From assembly GCA_030278955.1 (NCBI GenBank), contig JAOANR010000014.1, forward strand, positions 17,362,068 to 17,426,067: a stretch of DNA of 64,000 bases, in the 5' to 3' direction. The DNA comes from Hygrophila difformis. Its lineage: Eukaryota > Streptophyta > Magnoliopsida > Lamiales > Acanthaceae. Shown here in pieces: positions 3,939 to 34,761 of this stretch. The position numbers and the translations under genes are program-made. Within the stretch, counting starts at the first letter, position 1. Every line of letters begins with the position of its first letter. The notes under the pieces are model-generated. The model made no database searches. It had not been told where the DNA came from and saw only the letters and a program-made list of their open reading frames with translations.

Positions 3939-4409
3939 TTTTGTCGCGGAACAACTCTTGTCGCGGAACCACGTTCCGCGACAAAATGGTGCTTTGGCGA
4001 CAAAGGTGCCAAAGAACATTTGTTGACCATTATTTTAAAACCCTTGGTCGTGAAACACCCCTTGGCGCGGAACCACGTTCCGCGACAAAATCTTGATTAG
4101 CGACCAAGGACCCAAACACTTGTGATTTTATTCTGGAAGGGCTCTGTCGCGAAGCAACCTTGTCGCGGAACCACGTTCCGCGCCAAAACCTCTTGTTCCG
4201 CGACAAGAATTATGCCTTGTCCAATTTTCAACCTTTTTGTCGCTATGCCCTTGTCGCGGAACCATGTTCCGCGACAAAATTTTCTTTACTTAGCGACAAA
4301 GCAAACCCTAAGTGTTCAAAATCCCATTTCTCTTATTTCCCACCCCTTTGTCGCGAAACCTTTGTCGCGGAGCCATGCTCCGCGACACGAACCCTGCATC
4401 GCGACAAGG
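3939..4409 (+). repeat. Stem-loop cluster 2 (GTCGCGG class), transcribed part of element D LTR
   Basis: About six nested units. Each has an inner near-perfect palindrome (TTGTCGCGGAAC, 3-base loop, GTTCCGCGACAA) flanked by an outer pair of arms. Outer arms vary in a paired way: TTTGTCGCTA with TAGCGACAAA near 4233-4302, TTTGTCGCGA with TCGCGACAAG near 4349-4408, and TTGGTCG with CGACCAA near 4044-4108. Paired change keeps the stem while the sequence drifts. Confidence 0.85.
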
Positions 4410-7198
4410 TGGCACCTTATTGCCAAGTTTTCATTCTTCATCTCATTCCATTAATTAATTGAACCTTTATATTAATATTTTGAGGTTGAAATCCAATGAT
4501 CTCAACCCATGATTAATTTGATATAAAGAACCTTGTTCAATTTCCCATTAAAAGATTCTTTTACAAATGATTAAACTCTAATGATCTAAGTATATAATCC
4601 GGACTGTAATTAATTAATTAATTATGGAATGAGCGATTATTTAGACATGAAGAGTAATTATGGATTTAGTTCCATATCCTTGCATGAGAAACCAATGTCT
4701 CTCATGCAAGATGACCCAAAAATATTTTCTTTTATTTTATTTTTTTCTTTTCCGTGATGTGTGAAACAGCTAATAAGGAATATATCAGATTAATGTTGGC
4801 GGGTATTCCCACACGGATAACTAGCTCGTGATCTGTATATTAATTACTAGTTGATATTTTGCATGGTCCAGATAGTGGTCGGTGGAAGCCTTGGCGGTTC
4901 ATCCCTCCGGGATTATAATAGCTGCTCAGCTGACTCCCATCTGGATACAGTTTTCTTTCCTTACTTTAATTTCAAACCTGAATCTGGAGCTGTAGCAATG
5001 TTAGATGATATATGCCAATGTCATCTAATGATTATTGCAGTAATAGAACATGTGGGTTTTTGCCCAAATTCACAGACAGTGAAGTCTGAGATGACGGCGA
5101 CAACTGTCATTTGAGGCAATTCACTATCTAATAATCATCCCACCTGAAAGAATCAGGACCTGGATAGCAGATGTTTGCAGTCCGGATCATCCTGATTATT
5201 TTTGCCATCTTTTTAGCCAAATAAATTCTTCTCATCTCCGGCTATTTCATCTCTGTGTTTCACATTCTGTCTAAACCCACCTTATATTTTGGGTTATTTT
5301 ATTTTACACTTCTCTATAAATTTATGCATGATATTATTATGTAGATATTGTGGTCGATATTATTTTGGGACCCTTCCCTTGGACATAGAAGTCTTGATCA
5401 GATGTCTCATAATAAATTTCCAACAAAAATTCATTTATAAAATCCGGATCTAAGTAAGGGATAAATTCCACAGTTATGACTAATTCATATCCGACTGGGG
5501 GTTGATTTTGGGAAATTAGAAGCAGAGTCAGCGATTAGGTCTCACCTAGATTGAAAGGGTCTGTGTTCTTATTGAGAGTCTAGTACCTGATAGGGAATGA
5601 TTTTCAGATTTATTATTTTCCGAAATTGCTGTTTGTTGGAAATCTTGTATTAAATATTGCACTGGGTCAGAGTCCACTTGGATTCTGATAAGGTGTGACA
5701 GATAATACTAGAGAAACAACATTCGGGCCTTGGTTATTTTCTAAGGTAGGGTTGAGTATTCTTTTAACTGCTATCTTCTTCTGCCAAAGCCTATTTTTGA
5801 GTCCTGAGTGAGTGCATCCGGAACGAACTAATTTCATTAGTTCGTTTCATTAGTTTGTGTCTCATAACCACCCGACGAGAAGTGAACACTGCGAGCGATT
5901 CACCGAGAATAGGGAATTCTTGATCCACATCCGGTCATTCTGACTGGGGGCTTTCTTTTACTACCAGGGTCAGACTTTCAAAAACCTCCGAGTGATAGGA
6001 TTTTAAATGCTTTCTTTACCGCTTTCTTTCAATTGCTTTCTTTAGAGGTCACTCGGTTGTATTGAGAGTTGTGTAACTGCTACTAGGACTGAGAGTTAAG
6101 GGATAGTTTAGGGTTTGATTTGAATCTTCGGGTGTGACATGGGGGAATGATAGCAGTACTTGACACTTCAATAAATGATTTGTCAGGTGTCGCTTGTCCA
6201 CCACAGATAAATGACACGCTCTGACGGGAGCAGTTGTGAGTCTGTGGTATCTTAGATTTTGCTGTCTTAAGAGCATGTAACCTCTTACTGTAAGTACCTG
6301 TCTGTTAAAGGGAACATGGTATAGAGAGCATGAGAGTTAGCTAACTGAAGGATTATCCCAAGCTAAGATCTGTGTATTAAAATGGAAGTTTAACTATGTT
6401 TAATCTGAATCTTGTCCAACTTTTATTATTTTCGTCCTGTCCCTTCTGTCTCATTTTAAATCTGCTTTCTTAAATAATTTTAACCGCTTTCCTAGAATAA
6501 TTTTATCGCTTACCTAGATTGAGTTTAATTCGCTTTCTAGAATAATTTTATCTGCTTTATTTTAATTGCTTTCATAATCTAGTTAAATTCTGTCAAGTAG
6601 TTGTTAGTCATTTCACACACTTGAATCGAGTACCGAGAGGAAAATCTTAGTAAATGACGTGGGCCCTGCTTCCATCGCACATCCTCCAGTGAACGATCCG
6701 GTCTTACTATAAATTACTGCAATTTTTGACACCGTGCGCTTTCGGGGGCACAGTTTCTTAACTACGAGCAATAAAAACATGACTACGTATAAATATATCC
6801 CTAATCACAACACCGCCATCATAAATTGGTTTCATTAAATAAAACCTAAACCAGGATCATGATTTTTCAGAAAATACTCATGTAGTGGGAATCAGTCAAA
6901 AGTTTCATGGCAGGAAATCTTATGGCAAGAATTGATGAGAAGTATCATGGCATATTTGCCGGGGATCCTCAGTGTGACAGGCTGAAGGTCAACCTATCCC
7001 GGCTATGCCATGAGATTTGTCAACATTTCATGACAGAGAGGACCACAGCGCCATTTGAAACCAAAGCACCATACTTGAGTAATAAAAAGATATATCCCTA
7101 AACCCTTTCCCGTGAATCTTAATGCTTTTCATTTAATAAATCTAACCTGGTATAATTTTAGCAAAAGCTCGTGTTAACGAAACTTGTCAAAAGTTTCA

Positions 7199-7861
7199 TC
7201 CTCGAAGTTGTGTTTCTCCCACTTGAAATTCTAGGTCTCGTCGTCTCACGTCGGCATAACTCTTTTGACGGTCTTGTGCGGCTTTCATCTTCCCTTGGAT
7301 CACTTTGATTTGTTGAGCCATGTCTTCGATAAGTTGTGGTCCCACTACCACGGACTTATCGTTTTCTTCCCAGCTCAAAGGGCTTCGGCACTTTCGTCCA
7401 TACAATGCCTCGAAAGGTGCCATGCCGGTACTCGCATGGTAACTATTATTATAGGAAAACTCAATCAAGGGTAAATGAGATTCCCAATTTCCTTTGAACT
7501 CCAACACGCATGCTCTCAGCATGTCTTCTAGTGTTTGGATTGTCCTTTCGGTTTGTCCATCCGTCATCGGGTGGAATGCGGTGCTCATTTTGATTTGAGT
7601 ACCGAGAGCTTTTTGTAACTCCATCCAGAAATGAGAGACAAATCTACTGTCTCTATCGGAAATGATATCATGTGGTACTCCATGTCGTCGTACCACATTA
7701 TCAATGTAGGCTCGGGCCAATTGGTCCATAGTCCACGTGTCTTTCATTGGGATAATTATGGCTGTCTTCGTTAGCCTATCCACAATCACCCAAATCTTGT
7801 TCATGCCTTTAGGTGATCGGGGTAATCCCGAGACAAAGTCCATCGAGATGCTATCCCACTT
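7199..7861 (-). pseudogene. Integrase fragment of element E
   Basis: Catalytic core of a Ty3/gypsy integrase. Visible acidic residues are the first Asp in MDFVSGLPRS, the second in IISDRDSRF and the Glu of the TERTIQTLEDML segment. It is in the same frame as the RT/RNase H segment to its right but separated from it by TAG (7862-7864), at a position normally read through. The C-terminal part, where a chromodomain would be, is missing because element D is inserted at 7198/7199. Confidence 0.88.
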
Positions 7862-17321: not shown

Positions 17322-20153
17322 TGAAACTTTTGACAATTTTCTACACGAGTATTTTCTAAAATATCCCAGGTTAAACTTATTAAATGAAAAGAGTTATGAT
17401 TCAGGGGAAAGGGGTTTAAGGATATATTTCACTTTTTATTACTCGAATGGGGTATTCTGATTTCAAACGGCGCTGTGGACCTCACTGGCATGAAACTTTT
17501 GACAACTTTCACGGTGCAGCCGGGATAGATAGTTCAATCTTGACCTTCAGTCTGTCACACTGAAGGTCCCTGGCAATTTGCATCATGAAACTTATCATAA
17601 TTTCATGTCATGAAAATCCGTGCCATGAAACTTTTATCACATTCCCACTATATGAGCATTTTCTAAAAAATCACATTCCTGGTTTTCAATTTTATTTAAT
17701 GAAACCAATTTATGATGGCGGAGTTGGGATTAGGGATATATTTATAGGTTGTTGCGTTTTTATTACTCGTGTTAAGAAACTGTGGCCCGAAAGCGCACGG
17801 TGTCAAAAATTGCAGTAATTTATAGTAAGACCGGATCGTTCACTGGAGGATGTGCGATAGAAGCAAGACCCACGTCATTTACTAAGATTTTCCACTCGGT
17901 TACTCGATTCAAGTTTGTGTTTTGACTATCAACTACTTGACAGAATTTAAACTAAGCTATGAAAGCAGTAAAGTAAAACAGACAAAATTATTCTACAGAG
18001 CGAATTAAATTTAATCTAAGAAAGCAATAAAATTATTCTAAGAAAGCGATTAAGATTATTCTAAGAAAGCAGATTTAAAATGAGACAGAAGGGACAGGAA
18101 GAAAAGAATTAAAGATTGGACAAGATTCAGACGAGACACAATTAAACTTCCATTTTAATACACAGACCTTAGCTTGGGATAATCCTTTTAGTTAGCTAAC
18201 TCTCATGCTCTCTACACCGTGTTCCCTTTAACAGACAGGTACTTACAGTAAAAGTTTACATGCTCTTAAGAAAACAACCTCTAAGACACCACAAACTTAT
18301 AACTCCTCTTGCAATGCCTTGCGAGAGTATGTCAGCCATCTGTGGTGGACAAGCAACACCCGACAAATCACTTATTGAAGTTTCAAGTACTGCCATCATT
18401 CCCCCATGTCACACCCAAAGATTCTAATCAAGCCCTGAACTATCCCTTAACTCTCAGTCCTAGTAGCAGTTACACAACTCTCAATACAACCGAGTGACCT
18501 CTAAAGAAAGCAGTTAAAAGAAAGCGGTAGAAGAAAGCGGTAAAGAAAGCATTTAAAATCCTATCACTCGGAGGTTTTTGAAAGTCTGACCCTGGTAGTA
18601 AAAGAAAGCCCCCAGTCAGAATGATCGGGTGTGGATCAAGAATTCCCTGTTCTCGGTGAACTGCTCGCAGTGTTCACTTCCCGTCGGGTGATTATGAGAT
18701 ACAAACTAATGAAACAAACTAATAAATTAGTTCATTCCGGATGCACTCACTCATGACTCAAAAATAGGCATTGGCAGAAGAGGATAGCAGTTGAAAGAAT
18801 ACTCAACCCTATCTTAGAAAATAACCAAGGTCTATGTATTGTTCCTCTAGAATTATCTAACACACTGTATTTGAATCCAAGTGGATCCCATCTCGGTGCG
18901 TTAATTAAGACTAGATTCCCAATACATAGCAATTCTGGAAAATAATAGATGCTTGAAAATCATTCCCTAAACACGTACTAGACTCTCAATTAAAACACAG
19001 ATCCTTTCAGTCTAGGTGAGACCTAATCGCTGACTCTGCTTCTAATTTCCCAAAATCAACCCTCAGTCGGATATAAATTAGTCATAACTGTGGAATTTAT
19101 CCCTTACTTAGATCCGGATTTTATAAAAGAATTTTTGTTGGAAATTTATTGTGAGACATCTGATTTAAATCAAGACTTCTATGTCCAAGGGAAGGATCCC
19201 AAAATAATATTGACCACAATATCAACATAGTAATATCAGGCATAAATTTATAGAGAAGTGTAAAATTAAGTAACCCAAAATATAAAGTGGGTCTAGACAG
19301 AAGTTGAAACACAGAGATGAAATAGCCGGAAATGAGAAGAATTTTGGCTAAAAAGAATGCCAGAAATAACTGGGGTCGTCTGGACTGCAAACATCTGCTA
19401 TCCAGTTCCCAATTATTCCAGATGGAATGATTTTGGACAGCAAAAGATCTTAATGACAGTGATCGCTATCATCAAGACTCCTACTATCTGTGAAATGAGA
19501 GAAAAACCTACATGTTTTCTTACTGCAGTATTATTCAAACACTGTTGATCGACACCGTTTGATAATAATACAGCTCAAAATTCAGGTTTGAAATTAAGAT
19601 AAAGAAAAGGAAATTGTATCCGGATGGGATTCAGCTGAGCAGCTATTATAATCCCGGATGGATGAACCGCCAAGGCTTCCACCGACCACTATCCAGACCA
19701 TGCAAAATAACATCTAGTAATTAATATACAGACCACGAGCTAGTTATACGTATGGGAATACCCGCCAACATTAGTCTGTTATATCTCTTACTAACTGTTT
19801 CACACAACACGGGTAAAGACAAAATGAATAAAAGAAAATATTTTTAGGTCATCTTGTATGAGAGACATTGGTTTCTCATGCAAGGGTATGGAATTAAATC
19901 CATAATTACTCTTTATGTCTAAATAATCACTCATTCCATAATTAATTAATTAATTACAGTCCGGATTATATACTTAGATCATTAGAGTTTAATTTTTGTA
20001 GAAAATTCTTTTAATGGAATTGAACAAAATTCTTTATATCACATTAATCATGGGTTGAGATCATTGGATTTCAACCTCCAAATGCTAGTATAAAGGTTCA
20101 ATAATTTAAGTGAGGAAAATGGAGAAATGGAAAATTTGGCAAGAAGATGCCAA

Positions 20154-20505
20154 CTACGACGCTAGACAAATGTTACGGCGCTATCCAAGGATAGCGCCGT
20201 GATGATAACGTCGTAGGGAGAATTTTTAGAAGTGTTGATAAAATTGGAGGGTACGGCGCTATACACTAAATGACGACGCTATCCTAGGATAGCGTCGTAG
20301 ATATAGCGTCGTAAGTGGGTTTTGTGAAGGATTAAGCATTTTGGGGACCTACGGCGCTAGACAAAAATTACGACGCTATCCTTGGATAGCGTCGTTGGTG
20401 TAGTGCCGTAGGACAAATTTTTGTTCAAGTTCTGGGCAACTACGGCGCTAAACCTCACCTAAGACGCTATCCAAGGATAGCGCCGTAGGGCGGTTAGCGT
20501 CGTAG
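20154..20505 (-). repeat. Stem-loop cluster 2 (TACGGCGCTA class), element B 3' LTR
   Basis: Four consecutive units of about 60 bases. Each has an outer arm, an inner palindrome such as ACGGCGCTATCC-AA-GGATAGCGCCGT, and a complementary outer arm (20154-20217, 20262-20312, 20351-20421, 20451-20505). Inner stems vary in pairs: GGCGC with GCGCC, or GACGC with GCGTC. Confidence 0.88.
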
Positions 20506-21153
20506 CTAGCCCAGAAACATGTTGTTGTTCGGGTGATGCAATCTATGCGATTGCTAACCCTATTTTCAAGTTCATGGTTCACTTATGCAAGACAGGAGAC
20601 AAGAGAAAGCATTAACAGTTATAAAAAATAAAATAAAGTGCAAGGAAAACTCAAATAACAGTAAAAATAAAGCACAAATGAACCATAAACCTAAGTTAGG
20701 GTTTTTAACCAACACATCATGCATGAAATTCCACAAACAATAGTAAAAACACAAACCCACATAAAACTGTAAAACAAGGTGACCAAGGGGTCATTCAACC
20801 AAAATAAAGCAATAAATCCATGGACTCATGTCCATTTCATGATTTTGGGACTCTTTTTGTGATTAACTTCCCATTTATAAGAAATGGCTTGATAATACCC
20901 ATCATTTGGGTATTTCAAGCCTTAATAAGAGTTCAACAAAGCTGGAAATAATGTAAAATGCGGCTAGCTAGGGTAGCAAATGCTAATGACAACACTGGTC
21001 TATAATAAAAATCTAAACTAGGGCATAAATATAAATAATACAAGAAAATAAAATCCTAACTACCTAACTAACCTACACACCTCAAGAACACTAGGTTGTC
21101 TCCAAGTTTGAGTGTTTTCTGGCTTGATTCTGATCATTGGAGTCAACTGGTCC

Positions 21154-21160
21154 TTATATA
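21154..21160 (-). promoter_or_regulatory. LTR TATA box, element B 3' LTR
   Basis: The - strand reads CCTATATAAGGAC about 610 bp into the LTR, between stem-loop clusters 1 and 2. Confidence 0.65.
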
Positions 21161-21219
21161 GGTGGGAAACCCTAGGCCCATAGGCCCCCAGGCCTTGAAA
21201 TTGGAGTTCTGAGCCTCAG

Positions 21220-21485
21220 TACGACGCTATAGCTGGGTACGGCGCTATCCTACTACGGCGCTATAGGTCTAGCGTCGTAGTCTTCCATCCCGAAGACACT
21301 CTTTGTTTCTGAATGGACAGCTTACGGCGCTATCCTTGCTTACGGCGCTATACTCAACTACGGCGCTATACATGTTTAGCGCCGTCCACCTTTCTTCAAC
21401 TGTCAGCTTCAGTTTCCTCCTACGGCGCTAGACCAAGCTACGGCGCTATACATGCATAGCGTCGTAGTTTGTGTCTAGCGTCGTA
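21220..21485 (-). repeat. Stem-loop cluster 1 (TACGGCGCTA class), U3 of element B 3' LTR
   Basis: Repeated TACGGCGCTAT arms and complementary ATAGCGTCGTA arms just upstream of the TATA box, at the place where elements A and D carry the GTCGCGG class. Confidence 0.85.
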
Positions 21486-21771
21486 ATATCCTGTAAAATC
21501 AACTTTTTGTGGGTTTTTCATTTCTTTTCCCATCTTTTTGTTTCTTTTTTCTTTTCTTTTCTTTTCTCATGTTTTTGGATTTTTCTAACATAAATGTGTA
21601 ATAAAATTACATATTTATGCATTTTTCATACCAGCTCAATATTTTTACAATTATGCATAAATCAGTCTAATTCTACTGCTTTCTTATTTAATATAAGACC
21701 GGAATGCGATCAAATGCCCGTTTCAGACACGGAAATGGATTGAAAATAATGGTCATTTCTGGCCATTATCA

Positions 21772-23376
21772 ACATCCTCACATTTAATACTGATCGTCCC
21801 CGAGCAGTCAGAGTCAATGTTCCTAAGAACACGGACTCTACATATTCAATTCATTTTCGTGGCTTCATAAATCACATTCTTTTCGGATTGGGATAAGGCA
21901 ATCAAAAACTTCAAGTATTAATTTCCTTTGATTGCAGTGTTTAATGAAATGATACTTGCTCACTATATCGGGCCTACAAATCAAACATTATCATCAATCC
22001 TTCATGAACATCGTGTTTGAAAAATGCAAGGATTAAAAATCAGAATCAGGGGATGGCATGAACATGTTTAATGAAACAGAGCCTCATATATAAGAGAATC
22101 GGGAAAATTCACTCACTCTCAATGGGGTTTAATCAGTGTATCGCTCATAATCAAGTTTAATTAAATTATCCCATAAGCTTGCAATCAGACCAACTCGCCA
22201 CCGGCTCATTTCCTCAAATCGAGATCATGAGGTCTTATTTAAGGGTTAAAACGGGGCATACGGTTGTAACATTAGGTAAGGAAAATGAATTATTGGGTTA
22301 ATAAGTGGCAAGAATCCATTCCATCATACTTGGCACGTTTATTTAAAGTTTATGATCATCAATATTTTTCTCTCTTTTGCTTTTCTTTACTATTGCATAA
22401 CATTAGACTATGTCTAATTTGCTTTGTCATTTGCAATTTATTGTTGTTGAATGGATCTCAACACACATATTTTTTTTTAATCGGTTTATTGAATACCGAT
22501 TTATACATCTATGATGATCACAAATTCAATGCCTTGATAAAATTTATTCTTGCACACTTGGGTTTGAAATTTTTAGGTCTTTTTGTAGGCTAGGAAAAAT
22601 ATAGTGGGTTTCAAAGAAAAATTAGGCTTAAAGGCTCAACTTGGTTAATCCTAAAGGGTAAATATTTTTGGGTTTGGATTTCAAAAGAAGGCCAAAATTT
22701 GGGTTTTTCTAAGTGCCTCGATCATATGCTCGATTTTAGGAATATGGCATGGTCTTGAATCGGTCCCAATCGCAAGTTCTAGTTTCCTTTAATCAAAATG
22801 ATTCGCACATCGAAGAAATAAGTGAGTAAAAGTGACTCATGGCTCAAATCTCACAAGGTTGGGTTGATTCATGTCATACAATATTCTCAAATTTAATCAA
22901 AGCTTAGTTCTAACAATTTACTCAATCAAAATCTCTAACATGCAGATTTATTTCCCAATAAGCTGATCGCATCATTGAATTTTTATAGCTCAAAACCTTA
23001 GGAATTCATGTCATGCATGTTTTCAAATATATTATCCCAATTTAAAAGTTTGAAAATTTAATCATAAGCCTAAATTCAACATGTGAATTTAGAGCAGGTT
23101 TATGCATATTTTTGCTGGTTATTTAATTTAAAGCAGTAAAGAGGCACTGCTGACATACGGAGCATGTCAACAGCATATTTTTGGCCTGACAGTCACTTAT
23201 TCATCTTGGACTGTCAGACATCTTTTCAAGAATAAATTTGTTTTTGGACTGCAAAATTCCCTTTTGGAAAGCGGAAATTACATCAATTACAAGAGATTTC
23301 ATGCAATAAGAATGAATTTGCACAAACGACAGAAATTCTCTTATTAAGCTCAAAAATGAATAGGGGCAGATTAGAT
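21772..23376 (-). other. Element B 3' noncoding segment and purine tract
   Basis: Homologous to 1043-2686 and 58620-60258. The purine-rich tract AAATGTGAGGATGT abuts the LTR (21772-21785, - strand). It carries a short A run (T9 at 22470-22478 on +). The 102-codon + strand ORF at 22285 is antisense and has no support. Confidence 0.75.
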
Positions 23377-26300
23377 TCATTCTTTCGGCTCTCGCGGTTG
23401 AGTTGAAGGCCCAGCATCATCTGTTGGCGGAGGTGGCGGCTTCGGAAGCTGTTGAATGAGTGCTTGCATCACCATTTCCATCATTTTTCTTTGACGTTCT
23501 TCACTCTCCATCATCATCTTCCGTTGCCTCTCTTCGCTTTCTAGCCTTTCTCTGTAGTGCCTTTCTTCTCTTTCCAACAGGAGCAGTCTGAATTCATCCT
23601 CTCTTCTCCTTTGTTCGGCTCTTTCTTCCTCCTTCCTCTTATCTCTCTCCTCTCTGATTCTCCTATCATCTTCCCTCCCCAGAATGATAACATCTGCCAA
23701 CTGCTTAACACTTTCTGTCATGGTTTTGTTCATTGAACTCACGATCTCGACTATATTCGAGTTAGCAGGATGTTGGGACACGTTCTTGCTTGGAGGAGGG
23801 ACTTGGGAGAGCTGAGCTTGCTGCTGAGGGGCTTGAATCGGTGGTGATGAAGGAATTTGGCTTGGACTCGGTTCTGTTGGCTCATGTTGATGCTCTTCCA
23901 CTTGTGTTGAAGGTCCCGCCTCAGTACGGGCCTTTCTTCTTCTTTTAGGAGCAGGGGGAGGCATTGGATCTCTTCTTTGAATCGATGGTGCTTCTTCACC
24001 GGATATGAATGAAGATTGCACATTCGAGTCAGCCGGGAATGGAGGAAGTGCATACGTGATCCTTTCTTGATTTGGCATGGATGGGACTCGGATAGGAGGA
24101 TTCAGAATCACCTAGGCATCAGTGTCAAATTCTCCCATGTCTACCCCTTGAGCTGTGCAGATTCTTCTAATCAGATTCGGGTAGCAGAGAGCATTCTTCT
24201 TCTCAATTCGTGTAGTCATGACTCTAAAGATATGTTCCCCAACATTCAGTTTTCGCCCATGCCACAACTTTGCAAATCCCATCAGTACGCTGCCTGAAGT
24301 AGTTTGGGGATGCGAGCTGGGCCTGATTCTAGCCATGTAAAATTCGAATGTGGGCATGAACTCCACTTTTATCTTGGACGTGCTGAATGTTCCTACCAAG
24401 CCTGGTGTTCTGGTCAGGGAGTCGGCGATGGCCTGATATGTTGCTTTCATCTTTGTTTTGCCACGCCTACTCAAGATCTCTTCCTCCGGTATCTCACTTT
24501 GATAGCTGGGTGTTCGGAGGAACCTGTTTAGATAATCCGGGGATATATCTATTGTCTTTCCTCTGACCCAGGTTGTTCGTCTTGCAACGTTAATGTTGCA
24601 ATAGAACTCCCTAGTCAACTCCATGTACCCGGGATCTCCGTGATGTAATAAGAATTGCTCCCATCCAAGCCATGTCCTCCAAAAATCGACAGTCGGGTGC
24701 CTTAACGATTCTGGAGCAAACCCCTTGTCGGGTATGATGCTTTCCAAGAGCTCCTTATATGCCTTGACTGCTTTTGGATTCCCGTTGAATTTCCGAATCA
24801 CGTCTTCCTCCTTTATGATCATCTTGGTGTTTTCTATTTTCTGAATTCCCATTCGGGCGCGAACTCCGGTTTCTTCCCAAAATCTGGCGGGTTTGACTGA
24901 TCCAACAGATTCATCCTTGCTTGAGTGCCAGTCAGTTGGTTCGTCTTGCCCCTCCTGAATGGGTTCATGCCCGCTTGGTTCGCCTCCTTCCTGGGCTGCT
25001 TCGTTTAATGGATCCTGCTGAGCCTCTTCTACCTCCTCAACCTGTTTAATTACATTTTTCATTGTATTGTATTCAGTCATTACAGGCTTTGTAAAATTAA
25101 GTACAGGAACGTAAGGATCAACACTAGTTGATACCTCCTCCTCCTCCCTTTCTCTTCGTTCTGCAGCTTCCCTCAAAACTTGCTTGGCTGTTTTTGTGAA
25201 AAATGCTGCTACAGCCCTTGCTTCTCCTTCATCCTCTTTTCTTTCTTGTTCTTCTTCGACAGCATCTCTTTCCTCCCTTACCTTTTGTCTTTTCTCAGCT
25301 TCTTGTTGCTCATCAACTTTATCCTTTACCAATTCAGATAGTGGAATTGGATCCGCTCTTTCCTCAGGTTCGTCATTTTCTCCAATCATGACTCTTCTTC
25401 TTTTACTCTGCCCAGATGATGTTTCGGGAGCGATTACTGCTTCAATTCGAGCTGTCCCAACAAGGGGATCGATTATCCGGCCTACTTCAGTTTGGTATCT
25501 GATCTGTTCTTGATCTGCCCCTGCATCAATCCTAGCTTCAATCTGCTCATTAACATTTTGTCTTATGTGATCCCGGATGGTTGCAGCATCGTGAGCAGTG
25601 GGACCAGTCCAAGTAGGTGGTTGCTCTTCATTGATTTTCAGTCCCTTTCCCTCAACTCCACCAATGATTCTCAATTCTTCACCGTCTCCTAGTTCGGCTT
25701 CTCCTGACTTCCTGCTTTCTAAGTCCGCTTGCAGCCTTTCAGCTATTGCCCTGTCATGAATCTCTTTCTTCTTCCTTTCCTCCTCGGCTTTTGCTTTCTC
25801 AGTATTTTTCATCATTTCTGTATCTTGCATTGCCCGTTCTTCTCTCCTTATTCTTTCTCTAATTTCGGCTTCACTGGGCGGCTCTTCAGACATTTGCTGT
25901 TCCAGCACACCTGCCTGTGCATTTTCATCTTCTTGCATCTTTCTAGCTATCTCGGCGTCTCGAGCAATTTGTTCTTTCCGTTTAGGAGGTGGTGGTGGCA
26001 TTACTCCTTTTCCTTTGTCATTTGGATCTGCAGGTTTAGTTGCCTTCCTTGTAGTGGTCTCGGGCTCTCTGATTACAACTTTTGGCTCCGGTGCCCGTCC
26101 ACTTTTCTCCTTGTCAGCCAGCTTTATCAGTTTACCTCTAGTTTGAACTTGAGGTTCATAATGGCTTTCGGACACAGCGGCAGTAGCAGGGGTAGCAGGT
26201 ACTTGCTCTCGTGCTGGCAGGGCTGAGGCTTGCACAGCTGGTTGGGTTGGCAAGGGGTTAGCGTCATTGAAGACCTGAGGTGGTGACGCAGCACTCGTGT

Positions 26301-27667
26301 ATTGATCGATCAACACATCATCTTCATCTTCACCCCCTTCTCGTTCTCCTTCATCCACATTAATTCCCAGATTCTTTTCTGCATCTTTCACATATTTCTT
26401 GATGAAAACGGGACTGGAGATGCGATTTAGTCGCTTCACCCATACCTTTCGGATGTGATTACAGTAATAGGCTCTGTGCTCCCTCTTGTACAATAGCGGA
26501 GTGTTAGCTTTGACGGTGTTGCAGTAGTTCAACCCGAAAGCATCCATCTCCATCAAGAAGCGCACGAAATCCATTCTGTTTTCTTCGACCAGTGACTCAA
26601 CAATTGGCTTGGCCTCTGGCTTCACAAAAGACATGTCGTGGGAAAATTCGACTCGGATGTATTCCCCAGCCTCGGCCTGAGTCAAAAGTCGGGTCTGTCA
26701 TTGATTCTTCCCCAGCACCTTCCAAGGTGTATTCGTAATGAAACCAGTGATCTGATCCCTGAGCACATTGAGTTGGGCCAATCCTTGCGGTCTCTGCTCA
26801 GCGAGGTGAGTTGGCTTGTACACATCTTCCAAGAAGATTGTGTCAAAATAGTCCTCCTCTGGCAGTACCAGGTCCTTATCCAAGACAGATTCCGTAATGT
26901 CTTTTCTGCCCGTGCCCCATAGCGTCATCAAGGCATGCCACTGCTCCCTGAATTCTTTAGTTAAGTCTATCATTCTCTTAACTATTGGAGTCTGATTGTC
27001 CTTCTCTGATGCCATGGCCTTGTTGATGGCACTATTCAGATTGTGGCTCACTTCTCCGTGCCTCATCCTCGCTTGTTGCGTCAACCACCTCTGCTCCTTC
27101 ACGCCTTTGTTCTCCAACAAGCTAGAGTTGTATAAAAATGGCAGGGCTTTCTGCATCATGAAGATTCCATGAGTCACCAGATGACTGAGGTTGGGCACCT
27201 TTTCTGTGAACTGCTTCTTAACTCTTTCATCCACTCTGTTGGGCACCATTATGATATCAAATTCCATGCAGGCGGGATCTATTGTCTTTGAATGCTGGTG
27301 CCTTTCCCATCGGGCCATGAATTCATGAAATCTCCTCAAAATTCTTTCGGTGTGCACATCTTCTGGAAATTTCATGTCTTCTGCAGTCGCATCCATTTGC
27401 TTCTCCCAGAATTTTGACAGATAGTAGTAAAAGTCCCGTTGGAAACCCAACTCCTTGAAATTCCGTTCCTCAGGCTTGATGTGCTTGTCCCATCCTTTTG
27501 GCAATCTGAAATTCACTTCGATCTGATTCACGATTGACAGTTTATATGTTGATTCAAGAGCCTCCCGGTAGTCGTTAACCTTTTTGCGGAACTGCGAGCT
27601 CTCTAGGACCCCTTTGTCCTGTGTGCAAGGGGGCAGTCCTGCCCGTGACTCGACTACTAACTTTTCC
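23377..27667 (-). pseudogene. Accessory gene exon 2 of element B: very long Transposase_32-like ORF with two stops
   Basis: About 1430 codons in one frame from a splice acceptor (TTTTTCAG, exon starting 27667), interrupted by TGA at 26698-26700 and TAG at 24112-24114. The true stop is at 23377. N-terminal third: unrecognised globular-looking region (start context LPKGWDKHIKPEERNF). Middle: about 500 residues rich in E, K, R and Q, coiled coil or disordered. Then the conserved domain at about 24750-24115 (ELTREFYCNINVARRT, ISPDYLNRFLRTP, CYPNLIRRICTAQGVD), as in the Athila env-position ORF. C-terminus: Pro-rich, then RE-rich coiled coil. No transmembrane segment seen. The first stop falls before the conserved domain, so a full protein is unlikely from this copy. 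Confidence 0.8.
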
Positions 27668-29212
27668 CTGAAAAATATGAGCGTATTAAATCCAGTTTTT
27701 ATAATTTTTGCAGGAGTTATTTAAATTGAAAATCAACATCCTCACATTTAGAGCTTTGCTCTGAATGTGAGGTTGTTAAATCTTCAACTTAAATTTTATT
27801 GTAAAGCAGAGGTAAATTTTTCTTTTTACAAGTTTTGAGACTTTTTAAGAAAGCTTAAATTATTCTGAGAACTTAGGAGTCATTGGGCTCCCAAATATTT
27901 AGTGGACTAAGAGTCCAAAATAAAAGAGAAATGGTCATTGGACCAAGGATATTTTTAATGGGTCATTGGGCCCAAAAATTTTGATTTTCCCATTTTAAAC
28001 AATACCGAGGTGATTGTTGAAAGTGCAATGGAAAAATGGATGGAATGGAATGGATCGCGAATCGAGGAATGTGAAAGTGGAAAGTGGCGGTTTGGATCTG
28101 CTCGAAAGGATCTGCTATGGAACGAGATGGACAGCCCAAGACATACTCACAAAGAAACTAAACTATTTTAATTTTTATAAGAGGTTGACTTATTCTTTTA
28201 TTTAATAAAATTGGGATTTTGTGGGTCCCATTTTTGGATTTTTAAAATAATAGCAGCCCCACATATGAGGAACAAGAACTGCTATTTTTATACTAGCTTT
28301 ATGCTCCTTCGGGAGCAAAAACAAGTGAGTCAACTTATCAAACCAAATCCTACCAAATATTTTGTCTTTTTCTAAAGTGCTTTTTTCTGAAAAAGTTTGC
28401 TGCGTTTTTGGCTGCTTGCACAGGCTTTCCCAAAACAATACAAACATTTGCTTTTTATAATCCCAGGTACACCAAAGCAAACATACCAAATAAAACACCT
28501 AATTTAATGCTTCTTACAGCATCACAGTGGCATGCAAAACATATAGCATGAATACCAACACCATGCTCATGAGTTTCAAAGATGCAGATTCAATCCTCTT
28601 AACAAAGAGATCAAACATGCTTTCAGACTTCAGATTCACCAACAACATATTTGAAATTCTAAAATTCCCCACATGCTCAATGGTTTAAGATTCTAACTAT
28701 ACTAACATGCTTCTCAGTTAAGGGCGAATTACCATAGAGATTCAATAACACCAAGCTATACCATGAATAACTAAATGCACAACAGTTTTAACTTGAACAG
28801 GGGATTTATAACAAGAATCGAAGCAAAAACAAGAAGAATCTTCCCGAGAACCCTCAAACTCAAAAACTTAACAAAGGTGGGACATCAACCCTAGTTATCT
28901 ACGTCTGCTACCCTAGCCTATAACACCAAAGATCAAGATAGCAAACACATTACCCACACGAACTGTTCTTCCCCACCCTTTAAATCGAAAAAACTCCCAT
29001 CACAACCACAACTCAGCATTCGGTCATCAACACCCATTTACAGAAATCCAACAATGCCCACTTCATAAAATCCCTAGAATCGAACTAAAGCACGCGAAAC
29101 AGACCATAAGAACATCTATTTACAATGTCTCGCAAAACAGAAACAAAAATCCCCAAATTTGGGAAAAACAGGAGGCACTGGTTGCGCGAACCGGAGGGGG
29201 ATAGACGCTTAC
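27668..29212 (-). other. Predicted intron of element B accessory gene
   Basis: Donor CTG|GTAAGC (intron begins 29212) and acceptor TTTTTCAG|GG (ends 27668); phase fits exactly. Near the 3' end it contains a conserved hairpin and purine-like tract (27734-27771). No ORF of note inside. Confidence 0.65.
27741..27771 (-). repeat. Conserved hairpin with purine-like tract in intron, element B
   Basis: CTCACATTTAGAGC-TTT-GCTCTGAATGTGAG: 14-base arms with one mismatch. On the element strand it contains AAATGTGAGGATGTTG (27749-27734), the same sequence that abuts the 3' LTR. Equivalent hairpins are at 57851-57881 (A) and 44801-44831 (C). Confidence 0.85.
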
Positions 29213-29259
29213 CAGGGTTTCTCGGCCTTAGAAGATGAAGGAGGCGAAGAAGAGGCCAT
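29213..29259 (-). CDS. Accessory gene exon 1 of element B (predicted)
   Basis: ATG at 29259 opens a 47-nt coding exon (15 codons plus 2 nt; Ser/Pro-rich, MASSSPPSSSKAEKP) ending at the strong donor CTG|GTAAGC. The 2-nt overhang plus one base from the acceptor at 27667 joins the frame of exon 2, which has no good start of its own (its first in-frame candidates are GTG or TTG). It lies about 150 bp downstream of a TATA box. Evidence is phase, splice-site quality and the parallel arrangement in element A. Confidence 0.65.
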
Positions 29260-29408
29260 TTGCTTGATTTGGAAAAATTTCGACAGAGTTTCCCCTTGGT
29301 TTTGAGTGGAAAAAGTGTTGTGCGAACTCTGCGTTCGTCGAAAGAGAAGGGTTCGGGAGTGAGAGTTCGAAAATGTGAAGTGTGGGAATGAGGAGGGAGA
29401 CGAAGGGG

Positions 29409-29417
29409 TTATTTATA
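29409..29417 (-). promoter_or_regulatory. Internal TATA box of element B accessory cassette
   Basis: The - strand reads TTTTATAAATAACCCC immediately after the internal stem-loop cluster and before a pyrimidine-rich 5' UTR. The equivalent in element A is at 56641-56648. Together they suggest a second promoter for the accessory gene. Confidence 0.6.
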
Positions 29418-29433
29418 AAAGGGGGAAAAAGAC

Positions 29434-29780
29434 TACGGCGCTGAACTTGACTTACGGCGCTATCCTAGCGCCGTAGGCCTTGTTCAGCGTCGTAGATAGA
29501 AAATAAAGGAAAAAGGGGTACTACGGCGCTATCCTAATACTACGGCGCTATCCGAGGATAGCGTCGTAGTAATGGATTGCGCCGTAAGGCGGTGGAGAGA
29601 TAAGGGGGTACTACGGCGCTGTACCCTCAGTACGGCGCTATCCTAGGATAGCGTCGTTCTCAAGGACTGCGTCGTAGGAAGATATAGATAAAGGAGTGGG
29701 AAGTGCCCTACGACGCTATCCTACCACTACGGCGCTATCCTAGTGGTAGGATAGCGTCGTAGGTGAGAATAGCGTCGTAG
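29434..29780 (-). repeat. Internal stem-loop cluster (TACGGCGCTA class), element B
   Basis: The same nested arms as in the LTR clusters (inner palindromes CTATCCGAGGATAG and CTATCCTAGGATAG), ending within 20 bases of the internal TATA box. Same class as this element's LTR clusters. Confidence 0.88.
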
Positions 29781-30165
29781 CTGAGAGCGGGATTAAGTTG
29801 CATTTGAAAATTTTCAAAATTTTCAAAATTTACGCGGACTGGGCCTGGGTAGATGAAATTGGGCCTCAGTTGGTTTTATTTGTTTTGGACTTAAGAAATT
29901 TTTAGTCCAAAACATTTTTGCAGTGTTGATGGGTTAACTTAATAATTCAACTTGCATAAAATAGGTTGGATTAATTCCATTTGTTTGCCAAAATTATTTC
30001 GGATTTTAAATTGCTTTAATTTCCGAGATCATTTTCTCAAATTCATGGATTTAATCCAACCGGGAACCTGGTTTTCTGCTTGATTTTTCTGCTCCTTCTT
30101 TTTGGTGGTTCGAAATTTCCTGCAAGACAAATAAATACCCAATGGGTTAGGTTTTCTCCTTAAAT

Positions 30166-30181
30166 CAACATCCTCACATTT
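30166..30181 (-). other. Internal purine-like tract, element B
   Basis: The - strand reads AAATGTGAGGATGTTG, followed about 40 bases on by a good splice acceptor (TTTGTCTTGCAG, ending 30120). It matches 55954-55969 in element A, just after integrase. Confidence 0.75.
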
Positions 30182-30314
30182 ATAGTCTTAGTACTCTAAA
30201 TGTTTAATTGATTTGAGGGTACTTCTCTGTTCTGAAATAAAGACACTAAACTAACACTAAACTAACTATGAGTAATCAGGAGTGTAATTCTCTTAATAAA
30301 CGACGCTGCATCCT

Positions 30315-30331
30315 CCCCGGCAACGGCGCCA
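30315..30331 (-). other. Primer-binding site of element B (Athila type)
   Basis: The - strand reads TGGCGCCGTTGCCGGGG directly at the LTR end, the characteristic PBS of the Athila lineage, reported as complementary to tRNA-Asp. Confidence 0.93.
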
Positions 30332-33163
30332 TGAAACTTTTGACAATTTCCTACACGAATATTTTCTAAAATATCCCAGGTTAAACTTATTAAATGAAAA
30401 GAGTTATGATTCATGGGAAAGGGGTTTAAGGATATATTTCACTTTTTATTACTCGAATGGGGTATTCTGATTTCAAACGGCGCTGTGGACCTCCCTGGCA
30501 TGAAACTTTTGACAACTTTCACGGTGCAGCCGGGATAGATAGTTCAATCTTGATCTTCAGTCTGTCACACTGAAAGTCCCTTGCAATTTGCATCATGAAA
30601 CTTATCATAATTTCATGTCATGAAAATCCGTGCCATGAAACTTTTATCACATTCCCACTATATGAGCATTTTCTGAAAAATCACATTCCTGGTTTTCAAT
30701 TTTATTTAATGAAACCAATTTATGATGGCGGAGTTGGGATTAGGGATATATTTATAGGTTGTTGCATTTTTATTACTCGTGTTAAGAAACTGTGGCCCGA
30801 AAGCGCACGGTGTCAAAAATTGCAGTAATTTATAGTAAGACCGGATCGTTCACTGGAGGATGTGCGATAGAAGCAGGACCCACGTCATTTACTAAGATTT
30901 TCCACTCGGTTACTCGATTCAAGTTTATGTTTTGACTATCAACTACTTGACAGAATTTAAACTAAGCTATGAAAGCAGTAAAGTAAAACAGATAAAATTA
31001 TTCTACAGAGCGAATTAAATTTAATCTAAGAAAGCAATAAAATTATTCTAAGAAAGCGATTAAGATTATTCTAAGAAAGCAGATTTAAAATGAGACAGAA
31101 GGGACAGGAAGAAAAGAATTAAAGATTGGACAAGATTCAGACGAGACACAATTAAACTTCCATTTTAGTACACAGACCTTAGCTTGGGATAATCCTTTCA
31201 GTTAGCTAACTCTCATGCTCTCTACACCGTGTTCCCTTTAACAGACAGGTACTTACAGTAAAAGTTTACATGCTCTTAAGAAAACAACCTCTAAGATACC
31301 ACAAACTTATAACTCCTCTTGCAATGCCTTGCGAGAGTATGTCAGCCATCTGTGGTGGACAAGCAACACCCGACAAATCACTTATTGAAGTGTCAAGTAC
31401 TGCCATCATTCCCCCATGTCACACCCAAAGATTCTAATCAAGCCCTGAACTATCCCTTAACTCTCAGTCCTAGTAGCAGTTACACAACTCTCAATACAAC
31501 CGAGTGACCTCTAAAGAAAGCAGTTAAAAGAAAGCGGTAGAAGAAAGCGGTAAAGAAAGCATTTAAAATCCTATCACTCGGAGGTTTTTGAAAGTCTGAC
31601 CCTGGTAGTAAAAGAAAGCCCCCAGTCAGAATGACCGGGTGTGGATCAAGAATTCCCTGTTCTCGGTGAACTGCTCGCAGTGTTCACTTCCCGTCGGGTG
31701 ATTATGAGATACAAACTAATGAAACAAACTAATAAATTAGTTCATTCCGGATGCACTCACTCAGGACTCAAAAATAGGCATTGGCAGAAGAGGATAGCAG
31801 TTGAAAGAATACTCAACCCTATCTTAGAAAATAACCAAGGCCTATGTATTGTTCCTCTAGAATTATCTAACACACTGTATTTGAATCCAAGTGGATCCCA
31901 TCTCGGTGCGTTAATTAAGACTAGATTCCCAATACATAGCAATTCTGGAAAATAATAGATGCTTGAAAATCATTCCCTAAACAGGTACTAGACTCTCAAT
32001 TAAAACACAGATCCTTTCAGTCTAGGTGAGACCTAATCGCTGACTCTGCTTCTAATTTCCCAAAATCAACCCTCAGTCGGATATAAATTAGTCATAACTG
32101 TGGAATTTATCCCTTACTTAGATTCGGATTTTATAAAAGAATTTTTGTTGGAAATTTATTGTGAGACATCTGATTTAAATCAAGACTTCTATGTCCAAGG
32201 GAAGGATCCCAAAATAATATTGACCACAATATCTACATAGTAATATCAGGCATAAATTTATAGAGAAGTGTAAAATTAAGTAACCCAAAATATAAAGTGG
32301 GTCTAGACAGAAGTTGAAACACAGAGATGAAATAGCCGGAAATGAGAAGAATTTTGGCTAAAAAGAATGCCAGAAATAACTGGGGTCCTCTGGACTGCAA
32401 ACATCTGCTATCCAGTTCCCAATTATTCCAGATGGAATGATTTTGGACAGCAAAAGATCTTAATGACAGTAATCGCTATCATCAAGACTCCTACTATCTG
32501 TGAAATGAGAGAAAAACCTACATGTTTTCTTACTGCAGTATTATTCAAACACTGTTGATCGACACCGTTTGATAATAATACAGCTCAAAATTCAGGTTTG
32601 AAATTAAGATAAAGAAAAGGAAACTGTATCCGGATGGGAGTTAGCTGAGCAGCTATTATAATCCCGGATGGACGAACCGACAAGGCTTCCACCGACCACT
32701 ATCCAGACCATGCAAAATAACATCTAGTAATTAATATACAGACCACGAGCTAGTTATACGTATGGGAATACCCGCCAACATTAGTCTGTTATATCTCTTA
32801 CTAACTGTTTCACACAACACGGGTAAAGGCAAAATGAATAAAAGAAAATATTTTTGGGTCATCTTGTATGAGAGACATTGGTTTCTCATGCAAGGGTATG
32901 GAATTAAATCCATAATTACTCTTTATGTCTAAATAATCACTTATTCCATAATTAATTAATTAATTACAGTCCGGATTATATACTTAGATCATTAGAGTTT
33001 AATTTTTTTAGAAAATTCTTTTAATGGAATTGAACAAAATTCTTTATATCACATTAATCATGGGTTGAGATCATTGGATTTCAACCTCCAAATGCTAGTA
33101 TAAAGGTTCAATTATTTAAGTGAGGAAAATGGAGAAATAGAAAATTTGGCAAGAAGATGCCAA

Positions 33164-33515
33164 CTACGACGCTAGACAAATGTTACGGCGCTATCCAAGG
33201 ATAGCGCCGTGATGATAGCGTCGTAGGGAGAATTTTTAGAAGTGTTGATAAAATTGGAGGGTACGGCGCTATACACTAAATGACGACGCTATCCTAGGAT
33301 AGCGTCGTAGATATAGCGCCGTAAGTGGGTTTTGTGAAGGATTAAGCATTTTGGGGACCCACGGCGCTAGACAAAAATTACGACGCTATCCTTGGATAGC
33401 GTCGTTGGTGTAGTGCCGTAGGACAAATTTTTGTTCAAGTTCTGGGCAACTACGGCGCTAAACCTCACCTAAGACGCTATCCAAGGATAGCGCCGTAGGG
33501 CGGTTAGCGTCGTAG
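33164..33515 (-). repeat. Stem-loop cluster 2 (TACGGCGCTA class), element B 5' LTR
   Basis: Same four nested units as 20154-20505, with a few substitutions. One changes an outer arm from GTCGTA to GCCGTA near 33318, restoring a Watson-Crick pair or leaving a wobble depending on the strand. Confidence 0.88.
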
Positions 33516-34161
33516 CTAGCCCAGAAACATATTGTTGTTCGGGTGATGCAATCTATGCGATTGCTAACCCTATTTTCAAGTTCATGGTTCACTTATGCAA
33601 GACAGGAGACAAGAGAAAGCATTAACAGTTATAAAAATAAAATAAAGTGCAAGGAAAACTCAAATAACAGTAAAAATAAAGCACAAATGAACCATAAACC
33701 TAAGTTAGGGTTTTTAACCAACACATCATGCATGAAATTCCACAAACAATAGTAAAAACACAAACCCACATAAAACTGTAAAACAAGGTGACCAAGGGGT
33801 CATTAAACCAAAATAAAGCAATAAATCCATGGACTCATGTCCATTTCATGATTTTGGGACTCTTTTTGTGATTAACTTCCCATTTATAAGAAATGGCTTG
33901 ATAATACCCATCATTTGGGTATTTCAAGCCTTAATAAGAGTTCAACAAAGCTGGAAATAATGTAAAATGCGGCTAGCTAGGGTAGCAAATGCTAATGACA
34001 ACACTGGTCTATAATAAAAATCTAAACTAGGGCATAAATATAAATAATACAAGAAAATAAAATCCTAACTACCTAACTAACCTACACACCTCAAGAACAC
34101 TAGGTTGTCTCCAATTTGAGTGTTGTCTGGCTTGATTCTGATCATTGGAGTCAACTGGTCC

Positions 34162-34168
34162 TTATATA
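34162..34168 (-). promoter_or_regulatory. LTR TATA box, element B 5' LTR (active-position promoter)
   Basis: TATATAA on the - strand. This is the copy positioned to transcribe element B. Confidence 0.65.
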
Positions 34169-34228
34169 GGTGGGAAACCCTAGGCCCATGGGCCCCCAGG
34201 CCTTGAAATTGGAGTTCTGAGCCTCAGT

Positions 34229-34475
34229 ACGACGCTATAGCTGGGTACGGCGCTATCATACTACGGCGCTATAGGTCTAGCGTCGTAGTCTTCCATCCCG
34301 AAGACACTCTTTGTTTCTGAATGGACAGCTTACGGCGCTATCCTTGCTTACGGCGCTATACTCAACTACGGCGCTATACATGTTTAGCGCCGTCCACCTT
34401 TCTTCAACTGTCAGATTCAGTTTCCTCCTACGGCGCTATACATGCATAGCGTCGTAGTTTGTGTCTAGCATCGTA
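34229..34475 (-). repeat. Stem-loop cluster 1 (TACGGCGCTA class), U3 of element B 5' LTR
   Basis: Upstream of the TATA box; shorter than the partner at 21220-21485 by one half-unit. Confidence 0.85.
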
Positions 34476-34761
34476 ATATCCTGTAAAATCAACTTTTTGT
34501 GGGTTTTTCATTTCTTTTCCCATCTTTTTGTTTCCTTTTTCTTTTCTTTTCTTTTCTCATGTTTTTGGATTTTTCTAACATAAATGTGTAATAAAATTAC
34601 ATATTTATGCATTTTTCATACCAGCTCAATATTTTTACAATTATGCATAAATCAGTCTAATTCTACTGCTTTCTTATTTAATATAAGACCGGAATGCGAT
34701 CAAATGCCCGTTTCAGACACGGAAATGGATTGAAAATAATGGTCATTTCTGGCCATTATCA

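Follow-up and report, generated by a model that had tools for sequence, protein, structure and literature searches.

The nested inverted-repeat arrays in the LTRs of an Athila-like retrotransposon family, found in the 64-kb window (the whole stretch of Hygrophila difformis DNA that was analysed), are a real and orderly feature. On balance, they are probably clusters of binding sites for a class-specific DNA-binding factor, and not hairpins kept for their own sake. The explanation proposed is that a sequence-specific, probably dimeric factor, derived from either the host or the element, would recognise inverted half-sites grouped in quads, and this in three places, namely ahead of the LTR promoter, within the leader transcribed from the LTR, and ahead of a putative internal promoter. 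The latter would drive a separate, spliced 3' gene, and the factor would jointly activate or de-silence the two promoters. There are two motif classes, each serving all clusters of one element, and the motif-bearing U3 module has recombined between two element backbones. Since one motif recurs with near-fixed geometry beside two likely promoters and in the leader, with conserved arms and kept CpGs, a DNA-binding factor is the simplest account. At the sequence level, its basis consists of the clusters, their spacing, class identity and conservation, a conserved LTR core promoter, and the mosaicism of the elements.

Retrotransposons of the window

LTR retrotransposons were abundant in the 64-kb window, as became apparent from self-comparison, LTR ends, and protein families. 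The family studied here appears to consist of Athila-like Ty3 LTR retrotransposons, the PBS and domain order of which fit the Athila lineage. Element A (45020..64000, forward strand) comprised a 5' LTR (45020-49715), ORFs for gag, PR-RT-RH, and IN, an F-box gene, and a 3' LTR that starts at 60259 and runs past the window end; LTRs, a PBS after the 5' LTR, and the order gag-PR-RT-RH-IN were all present. Its integrase stretch was 46-69% identical to plant proteins (Tanacetum, Malus, Prunus, and others) among the 120 matches listed. The B/C element (17322..34761, reverse strand) was bounded by the LTRs B (3' LTR, 17322-21771) and C (5' LTR, 30332-34761) and by the TSD GTTAC, with the PBS TGGCGCCGTTGCCGGGG, which we take to be typical of the Athila lineage, from 30331 on the reverse strand; in element A, the LTR match ends one base later and GGCGCCGTTGCCGGGG follows from 49716. 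Neither gag nor pol domains were found when looked for in the ORFs of the B/C element, which looks like a non-autonomous form retaining an internal cluster and a 3' gene. Its PBS region passes almost straight into a stretch corresponding to the post-pol stretch of element A (30244-29818 on the reverse strand versus 55891-56310 on the forward strand). Furthermore, the B/C element is nested, with the TSD GTTAC, in a LINE (16616-17428 and 34867-37979), which has endonuclease and RT ORFs on one side and RNase H/zf-RVT on the other.

The two other elements were truncated. Element D (1..7199, forward strand) consisted of remnants of a Transposase_32-type 3' ORF from position 8 and a 3' LTR (2687-7199). 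Element C2 (38159..44775, reverse strand) carried an F-box 3' gene, a 3' UTR, and an LTR (38159-42417). The C2 LTR is followed, at 38159 and below on the reverse strand, by CCGGGGAGG, which resembles a PBS end, though internal sequence also precedes this LTR; C2 is possibly an internal-LTR-internal junction with a small deletion. Another Ty3 element (7196-11585, reverse strand), coding for gag, RVP_2 protease, RT, RNase H, and integrase, directly adjoins the LTR end of D. A search for relatives in viral contigs returned none.

Nested arrays and their two motif classes

The nested stem-loops announced by the original prediction were retrieved at all six intervals, as runs of four to six nested units of about 60 bases each. 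On the reverse strand, the arrays of B (20154..20505; four quads), C (33164..33515; four quads), and C2 (40674..41140; five quads) were built from the BC motif TACGRCGCTATCC. On the forward strand, the arrays of D (3939..4409; five quads), the A 5' LTR (46278..46816; six inner palindromes, four complete quads by scan), and the A 3' LTR (61516..62069; with an outer arm that is absent from the 5' LTR copy) were built from the AD motif TTGTCGCGGAAC. The arm of the BC class (B, C, and C2) reads TACGRCGCTA(TCC) and that of the AD class (A and D) TTGTCGCG(GAAC), the half-sites of roughly 10 bp containing CpG. The array unit is a quad of four arms, mostly in the order + + - -, which measures approximately 60-65 bp and recurs with a period of mostly 90-111 bp. 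Both classes follow nearly the same spacing scheme, being + 14-17 + 18 - 19-20 - in the BC arrays and + 14-17 + 18-19 - 18-22 - in the AD arrays. The inner spacing was 18 bp in all nine scanned quads of the B and C2 arrays and 18-19 bp in the AD arrays; exceptions were two units of the internal cluster of the B/C element, with inner spacings of 24 and 13 bp.

The position of the arrays was the same in both classes, as had been claimed, the first exact array arm falling at LTR position 1248-1316 in the six LTR copies. The claim of two unrelated sequences stood up as well, as the stretches covering the U3 cluster and the array were 35-57% identical between classes in a forced alignment, versus mostly 60-95% for the rest of the LTR, and comparisons of the BC and AD core motifs gave no significant similarity (P 0.09, 0.33, and 0.58). 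A common origin of the two motifs was considered and set aside, its best comparison, that of the AD outer arm with the BC arm, being the non-significant one with P 0.09.

Folding of the six arrays gave RNA folding energies at z -8.9 to -17.9 against dinucleotide shuffles, on both strands (40 shuffles each), in agreement with the predicted stem-loops. Two control stretches yielded z 0.1/0.4 and -4.6/-3.4, respectively, and thus a moderate folding z is not special in this window.

Clusters in U3 and after pol

The LTR array that had been noted is one of three clusters, those in U3 and after pol having been overlooked. Indeed, a motif scan revealed the same class-specific motif in two further places per element, namely in U3 (approximately LTR position 287-554), where a cluster was present in every LTR copy, and after pol, where it was present in both elements with an internal region inside the window (A and B/C). 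The motif, telo-box, and TATA patterns used here and below were picked after inspection of the sequence.

The U3 clusters with the BC motif, all on the reverse strand, were those of B (21220..21486; three units, + + - -, + - - -, and + - - -), C (34228..34476; the first unit being + + - only, with one arm fewer), and C2 (41864..42130; + + - -, + - - -, and + - - -). Those with the AD motif, on the forward strand, were found in the A 5' LTR (45306..45567; three units, the third with two minus arms only), the A 3' LTR (60544..60805), and D (2993..3235; three units, the third with minus arms only). In the + - - - units of B and C2, the arms follow each other at 16-19 bp steps; as these make up two of the three units, motif and spacing are kept there without a proper nested hairpin. 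The post-pol clusters were located at 56320..56631 (forward strand; AD motif, four quads) in element A and at 29434..29782 (reverse strand; BC motif, four units, three of them complete quads by scan) in the B/C element. In these two elements, and in these only, the class of the LTR clusters could be compared with that of the internal cluster, and it matched.

Within cluster limits drawn from the same scan, all 98 BC sites with at most one mismatch lay inside BC clusters, and 72 of 75 AD sites with at most two mismatches lay inside AD clusters, the other three being isolated. Folding was less marked in the four U3 clusters examined (A, D, B, and C2; z -1.8 to -9.4) than in the two internal clusters (z -10.0 to -13.5).

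These results also bear on the alternative that the units are independent insertions into the LTR, be it of a MITE, as the original prediction had itself considered, or of subterminal DNA-transposon sequence. Short CpG-rich inverted motifs do recall the subterminal repeats of CACTA elements. Yet a flanking direct repeat above 4 bp, as expected from target duplication, accompanied none of 18 quads (for one of which the right edge was set inside the unit), the units occupy the same positions with a similar period in both classes, and the same motif occurs in three regions, which makes such insertions highly improbable.

Conservation of arms and CpG dinucleotides

Between B and C2, the arms were far better conserved than the linkers, both in the array (147 of 160 positions or 92% versus 154 of 215 or 72%; P 8e-7) and in U3 (117 of 120 or 97.5% versus 130 of 169 or 77%; P 2e-7). 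Between A and D, the contrast was weak in the array (144/195 or 73.8% for arms versus 208/306 or 68.0% for linkers), in part owing to units that are aligned out of register; in U3, it was small (86/88 versus 189/201). When arms were masked, no similarity could be detected among the linkers, whether different clusters of an element or different units were compared. This comparison is of low power, as even the homologous arrays of A and D go unmatched in it and one shared B-C2 linker only is recovered.

Each core arm contains two CpGs. The CpG observed/expected ratio of the clusters was high, amounting to 1.44 and 1.60 in the LTR clusters of B, 0.93 and 1.42 in those of A, and 1.38/1.44 in the internal clusters. 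The ratio dropped to 0.13 and 0.05 between the LTR clusters (mid-LTR), was 0.43-0.61 in most other element parts, and reached 0.72 and 0.95 in the short LTR tips. The genome as a whole is not depleted, given the ratios of 1.16 at 11.6-16.5 kb and 0.90 in another Ty3 element. Cluster CpGs were kept in 100 of 108 cases between B and C2 and in 94 of 112 between A and D, versus 64/110 and 64/123 elsewhere in the LTR; the P values for this contrast (2e-9 and 2e-7) are overstated, as both sequences of a pair were counted and kept sites count twice. Similarly, decay of CpG to TG, CA, or TA within a class affected 6-8% of sites in clusters versus 32-33% elsewhere. Between classes, where the clusters are not alignable, only 36 of 108 and 36 of 100 CpGs were kept. 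Selection on the sites that contain CpG and low methylation of the clusters would each account for this retention.

The same figures invite the reading that the arrays are a source or target of small RNAs in host silencing, their CpG density marking a methylation target. Inverted repeats can seed small RNAs, and the CpG ratio of the clusters (0.93-1.60) does stand out from that of the neighbouring mid-LTR (0.05-0.13). Nevertheless, selection should purge a silencing target, and methylated CpGs should decay faster, whereas those of the clusters decay least; in addition, stems of 12-13 bp are short for Dicer. This reading is therefore considered improbable.

Pairing and covariation

The original prediction stated that arms change in pairs, and concluded that the hairpin itself is selected, as RNA structure, as cruciform DNA, or as protein-bound inverted sites. 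Pairing and covariation were examined with one LTR per element (the C and A 3' LTR copies being omitted), in 25 quads for the core arms (leaving aside two A units and one internal unit of B without a complete arm set), in 14 AD and 11 BC inner palindromes for the covariation score (three of odd length being omitted), and in 12 quads per class for the flanks; the unit shuffles ignore relatedness among units. Some of what had been stated was recovered. The listed examples exist, the pairs GTCGCTA/TAGCGAC and GTCGCGA/TCGCGAC being units 4 and 5 of D. Likewise, the AD class had excess pairing beside the dyad, with a within-element P of 0.009 (Watson-Crick) and 0.003 (with G-T), and pooled values of 0.0006 and 0.0003; its covariation score was reached by 2 of 500 shuffles, a single pair (columns 11 and 17) contributing most of it. 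The core arms themselves paired no better than re-paired ones, with 103 versus 103.7 expected pairs for the BC inner arms (P 0.76), 104 versus 101.1 for the BC outer arms (P 0.14), 96 versus 96.4 for the AD inner arms (P 1.0), and 90 versus 87.9 for the AD outer arms (P 0.18). Fully complementary outer arms were found in none of the four scanned quads of the A array. For the BC class, paired changes were absent or marginal, since the within-element P beside the dyad was 0.23 and, with G-T allowed, 0.18 (pooled 0.07 and 0.04, the latter being 0.036 with G-T) and the covariation score was reached by 91 of 500 shuffles. Over five covariation measures, the observed value was reached by 12, 37, 4, 104, and 2 of 500 shuffles in the AD class and by 246, 78, 256, 40, and 91 of 500 in the BC class. 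Outside the outer arms, the flanks had a weak pairing excess in the AD class (P 0.02-0.04), the BC values being 0.36-0.52. Hence, covariation is confined to the dyad and the flanks, mainly in the AD class; the motif itself is the best-conserved feature, and extra support for pairing comes mainly from the AD class.

These data weigh upon the possibility that the hairpins act as RNA, with the nested stems of the array in the leader and those of the internal cluster in the genomic RNA serving packaging, dimerisation, translation control, or stability. Such a role would agree with the high stability predicted for the folds of both arrays and internal clusters, at z about -9 to -18, with a position of the array probably downstream of the LTR start site, with the AD dyad covariation and the marginal pooled BC dyads, and with the extended dyads, which were found in array and internal clusters and were much fewer in the U3 cluster. 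Against it stand the lack of clear covariation in the BC class and in the core arms of either class, the antisense strand folding as strongly, and the occurrence of the same arms upstream of the inferred LTR start, outside the 5' leader. Moreover, inner-stem mismatches on the sense strand were G-T in 11 cases, A-C in 12, and other in 22, so that there is no preference for RNA-compatible wobbles, and no Rfam family matched at gathering score. An RNA function is thus rather unlikely.

At the DNA level, the quads may extrude as cruciforms, or slippage and template switching may keep them palindromic, and they would then have hardly any function or none. Symmetric changes in the dyad (TCCTAGGA/TACTAGTA and GAAC.GTTC/GAGC.GCTC) resemble quasi-palindrome correction, and the two LTRs of element A (46578-46604 versus 61816-61857) differ by 15 bases, lost or gained, between two direct arm copies, which is best read as recent slippage in a young array, a change since insertion. 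Such processes leave the conservation of arms versus linkers between B and C2 and the CpG retention unexplained, as well as the same motif at separate promoters and the inner spacing of 18 bp (18-19 bp in the AD class), and they are an unlikely explanation.

Of the three forms of selection originally suggested, protein-bound inverted sites are favoured, since the same arms lie upstream of two likely promoters and the core arms do not covary in a pair-specific way, which speaks against RNA and cruciforms. Because the AD dyads have excess pairing and the array is probably transcribed, RNA or cruciform pairing may retain support in the AD class. Conversely, independent half-sites need no pairing, so that the pairing of AD dyads and flanks and the marginal pooled BC dyads count against the site reading. 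Taken together, the hairpin reading is only partly supported, and an operator array at two promoters with exchangeable motif classes seems to be the better reading.

Putative promoters and the 3' gene

Each of the six LTR copies had a telo-box followed by a TATA box (LTR position 594-622) shortly after its U3 cluster, the TATA lying 59-72 bp downstream of the last U3 arm. The pattern of both boxes within 12 bases, devised after alignment, matched six times in the window, once per LTR copy and nowhere else. On the forward strand, these candidate core promoters were located at 45627..45645 in the A 5' LTR (telo-box AGGGTT and TATAAA, the TATA lying 72 bp after the last U3 arm), at 60865..60883 in the A 3' LTR (telo-box and TATAAA), and at 3295..3313 in D (telo-box and TATAAA). 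On the reverse strand, they were located at 21155..21173 in B (AGGGTTT..TATATA), at 34163..34181 in C, and at 41797..41817 in C2 (telo-box and TATA in both). Assuming a start approximately 30 bp after the LTR TATA, the nested array would fall within the leader, some 0.6-1.2 kb further downstream, and is probably transcribed. A main promoter just after the nested array, suggested by TTTATA in A, B, and D and by the mosaic breakpoint, was dropped in favour of the fully conserved, stronger combination of telo-box and TATA.

Similarly, a putative internal TATA follows the post-pol cluster, 9 bp after the last arm in element A (TATTTATA, a weak TATA; 56641..56648, forward strand) and 16 bp after it in the B/C element (TATAAATA; 29410..29417, reverse strand); a TATA-like box is expected approximately 0.02 times per 25 bp. 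The leader after this box is CT-rich (75% C+T in A and 63% in B/C) and free of ATG. The first ATG (56796 in A and 29259 in B/C) opens a short exon that ends at a phase-2 donor. For the 3' gene of A, the proposed exon 1 (56796..56863, forward strand; GTAAAC donor, phase 2) and exon 2 (57956..58619, forward strand; acceptor TTTCAG at 57950-57955), the latter coding for F-box and TPR_27, join into an open frame of 243 codons plus stop. In C2, exon 2 (44068..44725, reverse strand; F-box and TPR_27) has the acceptor TTTTCAG at 44732-44726, exon 1 lying outside the window. In the B/C element, the proposed exon 1 (29213..29259, reverse strand) extends from the ATG to a GTAAGC donor, and exon 2 (23377..27667, reverse strand), the acceptor of which ends at 27668, contains ORF stretches of 340, 861 (Transposase_32, PF20167), and 244 amino acids, which share a frame but are separated by stop codons where the first two of them end. 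GGCCCA/TGGGCC elements, of which 44 occur in the window, adjoin both putative promoters of A (45288, 45297, and 45311; 56266 and 56284).

The F-box ORFs of A and C2 share 148 of 235 amino acids (63%), with a dN of 0.26, a dS of 0.89, and a dN/dS of approximately 0.3, which points to constraint. The F-box and TPR_27 ORFs (44068-44775, reverse strand; 57903-58619, forward strand) are borne by retroelements and have a C-terminal tail with Cys/His. A protein database search returned no relatives at E<=0.001, either for the F-box ORF of A or for the Transposase_32 stretch; the F-box protein had no solved relative at E below 0.01, and five 3' ORFs gave no NCBIfam match. A structure prediction of the F-box protein (mean pLDDT 36) yielded a useless model, and no DNA-binding domain was found in the F-box and Transposase_32 ORFs.

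Mosaic backbones and exchange of motif modules

Informative sites in a four-way alignment grouped A with D and B with C2 in columns 0-1999 (321 sites versus 15 and 15 for the other groupings), although the figure of 321 is inflated by many sites in stretches that are not truly alignable between classes. In columns 2000-4399, A grouped with C2 and B with D (179 versus 24 and 12), after which A and D grouped again (12 versus 2). The principal change of grouping occurs immediately past the array (position 1932 to 1967 of A). As each of the two motif classes is found with each of the two backbones, the motif module has moved between the latter. A simple strand transfer with a single breakpoint (U3/R) does not fit the mosaic, given the second breakpoint near LTR position 4150. 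The type of the 3' ORF tracks the downstream LTR type, being F-box in A and C2 and Transposase_32 in B and D. This contradicts a dependence of the motif class on the type of 3' ORF and, since ORF type does not track motif class, counts against the site-factor reading; the 3' UTRs gave a mixed grouping signal. The LTR tips (positions 1-200) were 93-98% alike among the four elements, and similarity was mostly 84-98%, and 77% at the lowest, in the 3' UTR blocks that adjoin the LTR; as neighbouring parts are far more diverged, this suggests frequent recombination between copies.

Comparison with known systems

Repeated cis-acting motifs occur in the U3 of the plant LTR promoters of Tnt1 and Tto1, which the present arrays resemble in this respect. 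Unlike in Tnt1 and Tto1, the motifs occur here also in the leader and at the internal promoter, as inverted quads and in two exchangeable classes.

A closer parallel concerns the VANDAL elements of Arabidopsis, for which the accessible parts of two reports describe VANC proteins that bind element-specific motif arrays in non-coding stretches and undo silencing (PMC5735166, PMC10398659). Alike are the dense, short, element-specific motifs in non-coding sequence, upstream of a gene and in introns, and the different motifs of related families, which turn over together. VANDALs, according to the same sources, differ in being DNA transposons with an encoded VANC (PMC5735166, PMC10398659). Furthermore, the VANC21 motif is described there as occurring in one orientation, in tandem repeats, whereas the arms here form inverted quads with linkers without detectable similarity. 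No VANC-family protein appeared among the Pfam matches of the 18 window ORFs scanned, some of which matched nothing.

Foamy viruses offer a second parallel, as the Tas protein binds both the LTR and an internal promoter, its binding being reported as demonstrated in the available text (PMC4929722). Common to both systems would be an LTR promoter and, as proposed here for the family studied, a promoter inside the element that serves a 3' gene, each of them next to sites of one class (PMC4929722). In the family studied, the same cis-sites were present at both putative promoters of the A and B/C elements, two elements only. The genes are not homologous to those of foamy viruses, and here both promoters are proposed from sequence signals, from which we infer start sites, splicing, binding, and coordinate control of both promoters. 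The arrays belong to neither the VANC nor the Tas group, as the VANC21 targets have another motif orientation and a protein resembling VANC or Tas was not found.

As for the 3' gene, Grande (gene23) and Retand likewise carry an extra gene downstream of pol and ahead of the 3' LTR, as far as the consulted portions of the reports go (PMC7264820, PMC11963269), and gene23 is reported there to have its own, antisense, promoter (PMC7264820). Those ORFs are described as mainly antisense, whereas the gene considered here is in sense orientation and its proposed promoter shares the motif array with the LTR; in the same portions, the tandem repeats of Retand are not described as promoter motifs (PMC7264820, PMC11963269). 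Athila elements of sunflower carry a 3' ORF with Transposase_32 (PF20167), as does the family studied here, but the consulted part of that report describes no motif arrays or internal promoter (PMC11728184). In the present family, an F-box gene replaces the ORF in sister copies. Sunflower Athila elements are also stated, in the accessible part of another report, to fall into groups, one of which has a marked methylation drop in its LTRs (PMC12844716). At the level of titles and the opening lines of abstracts, no description of such arrays was encountered among the literature matches listed.

Implications

The site-cluster explanation can be extended, tentatively and with considerable doubt, to a two-promoter programme resembling that of foamy viruses. 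The LTR promoter would then serve gag-pol and the internal promoter the spliced 3' gene (F-box or Transposase_32), and both would be commanded by one self-recognising, CpG-dependent, anti-silencing or activating factor acting through interchangeable palindromic operators, the motif class being an exchangeable mark of identity that determines to which factor an element responds. If this is true, an LTR retrotransposon would have convergently built, as foamy viruses and VANDAL transposons have, private cis-sites common to two promoters, the identity of which can change as a set. It would become testable how a retrotransposon lineage escapes silencing and why motif identity turns over, and similarly whether recombination between copies swaps regulatory identity. 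Finally, it would offer a concrete starting point in the search for what the puzzling 3' ORFs of Athila-type elements do.
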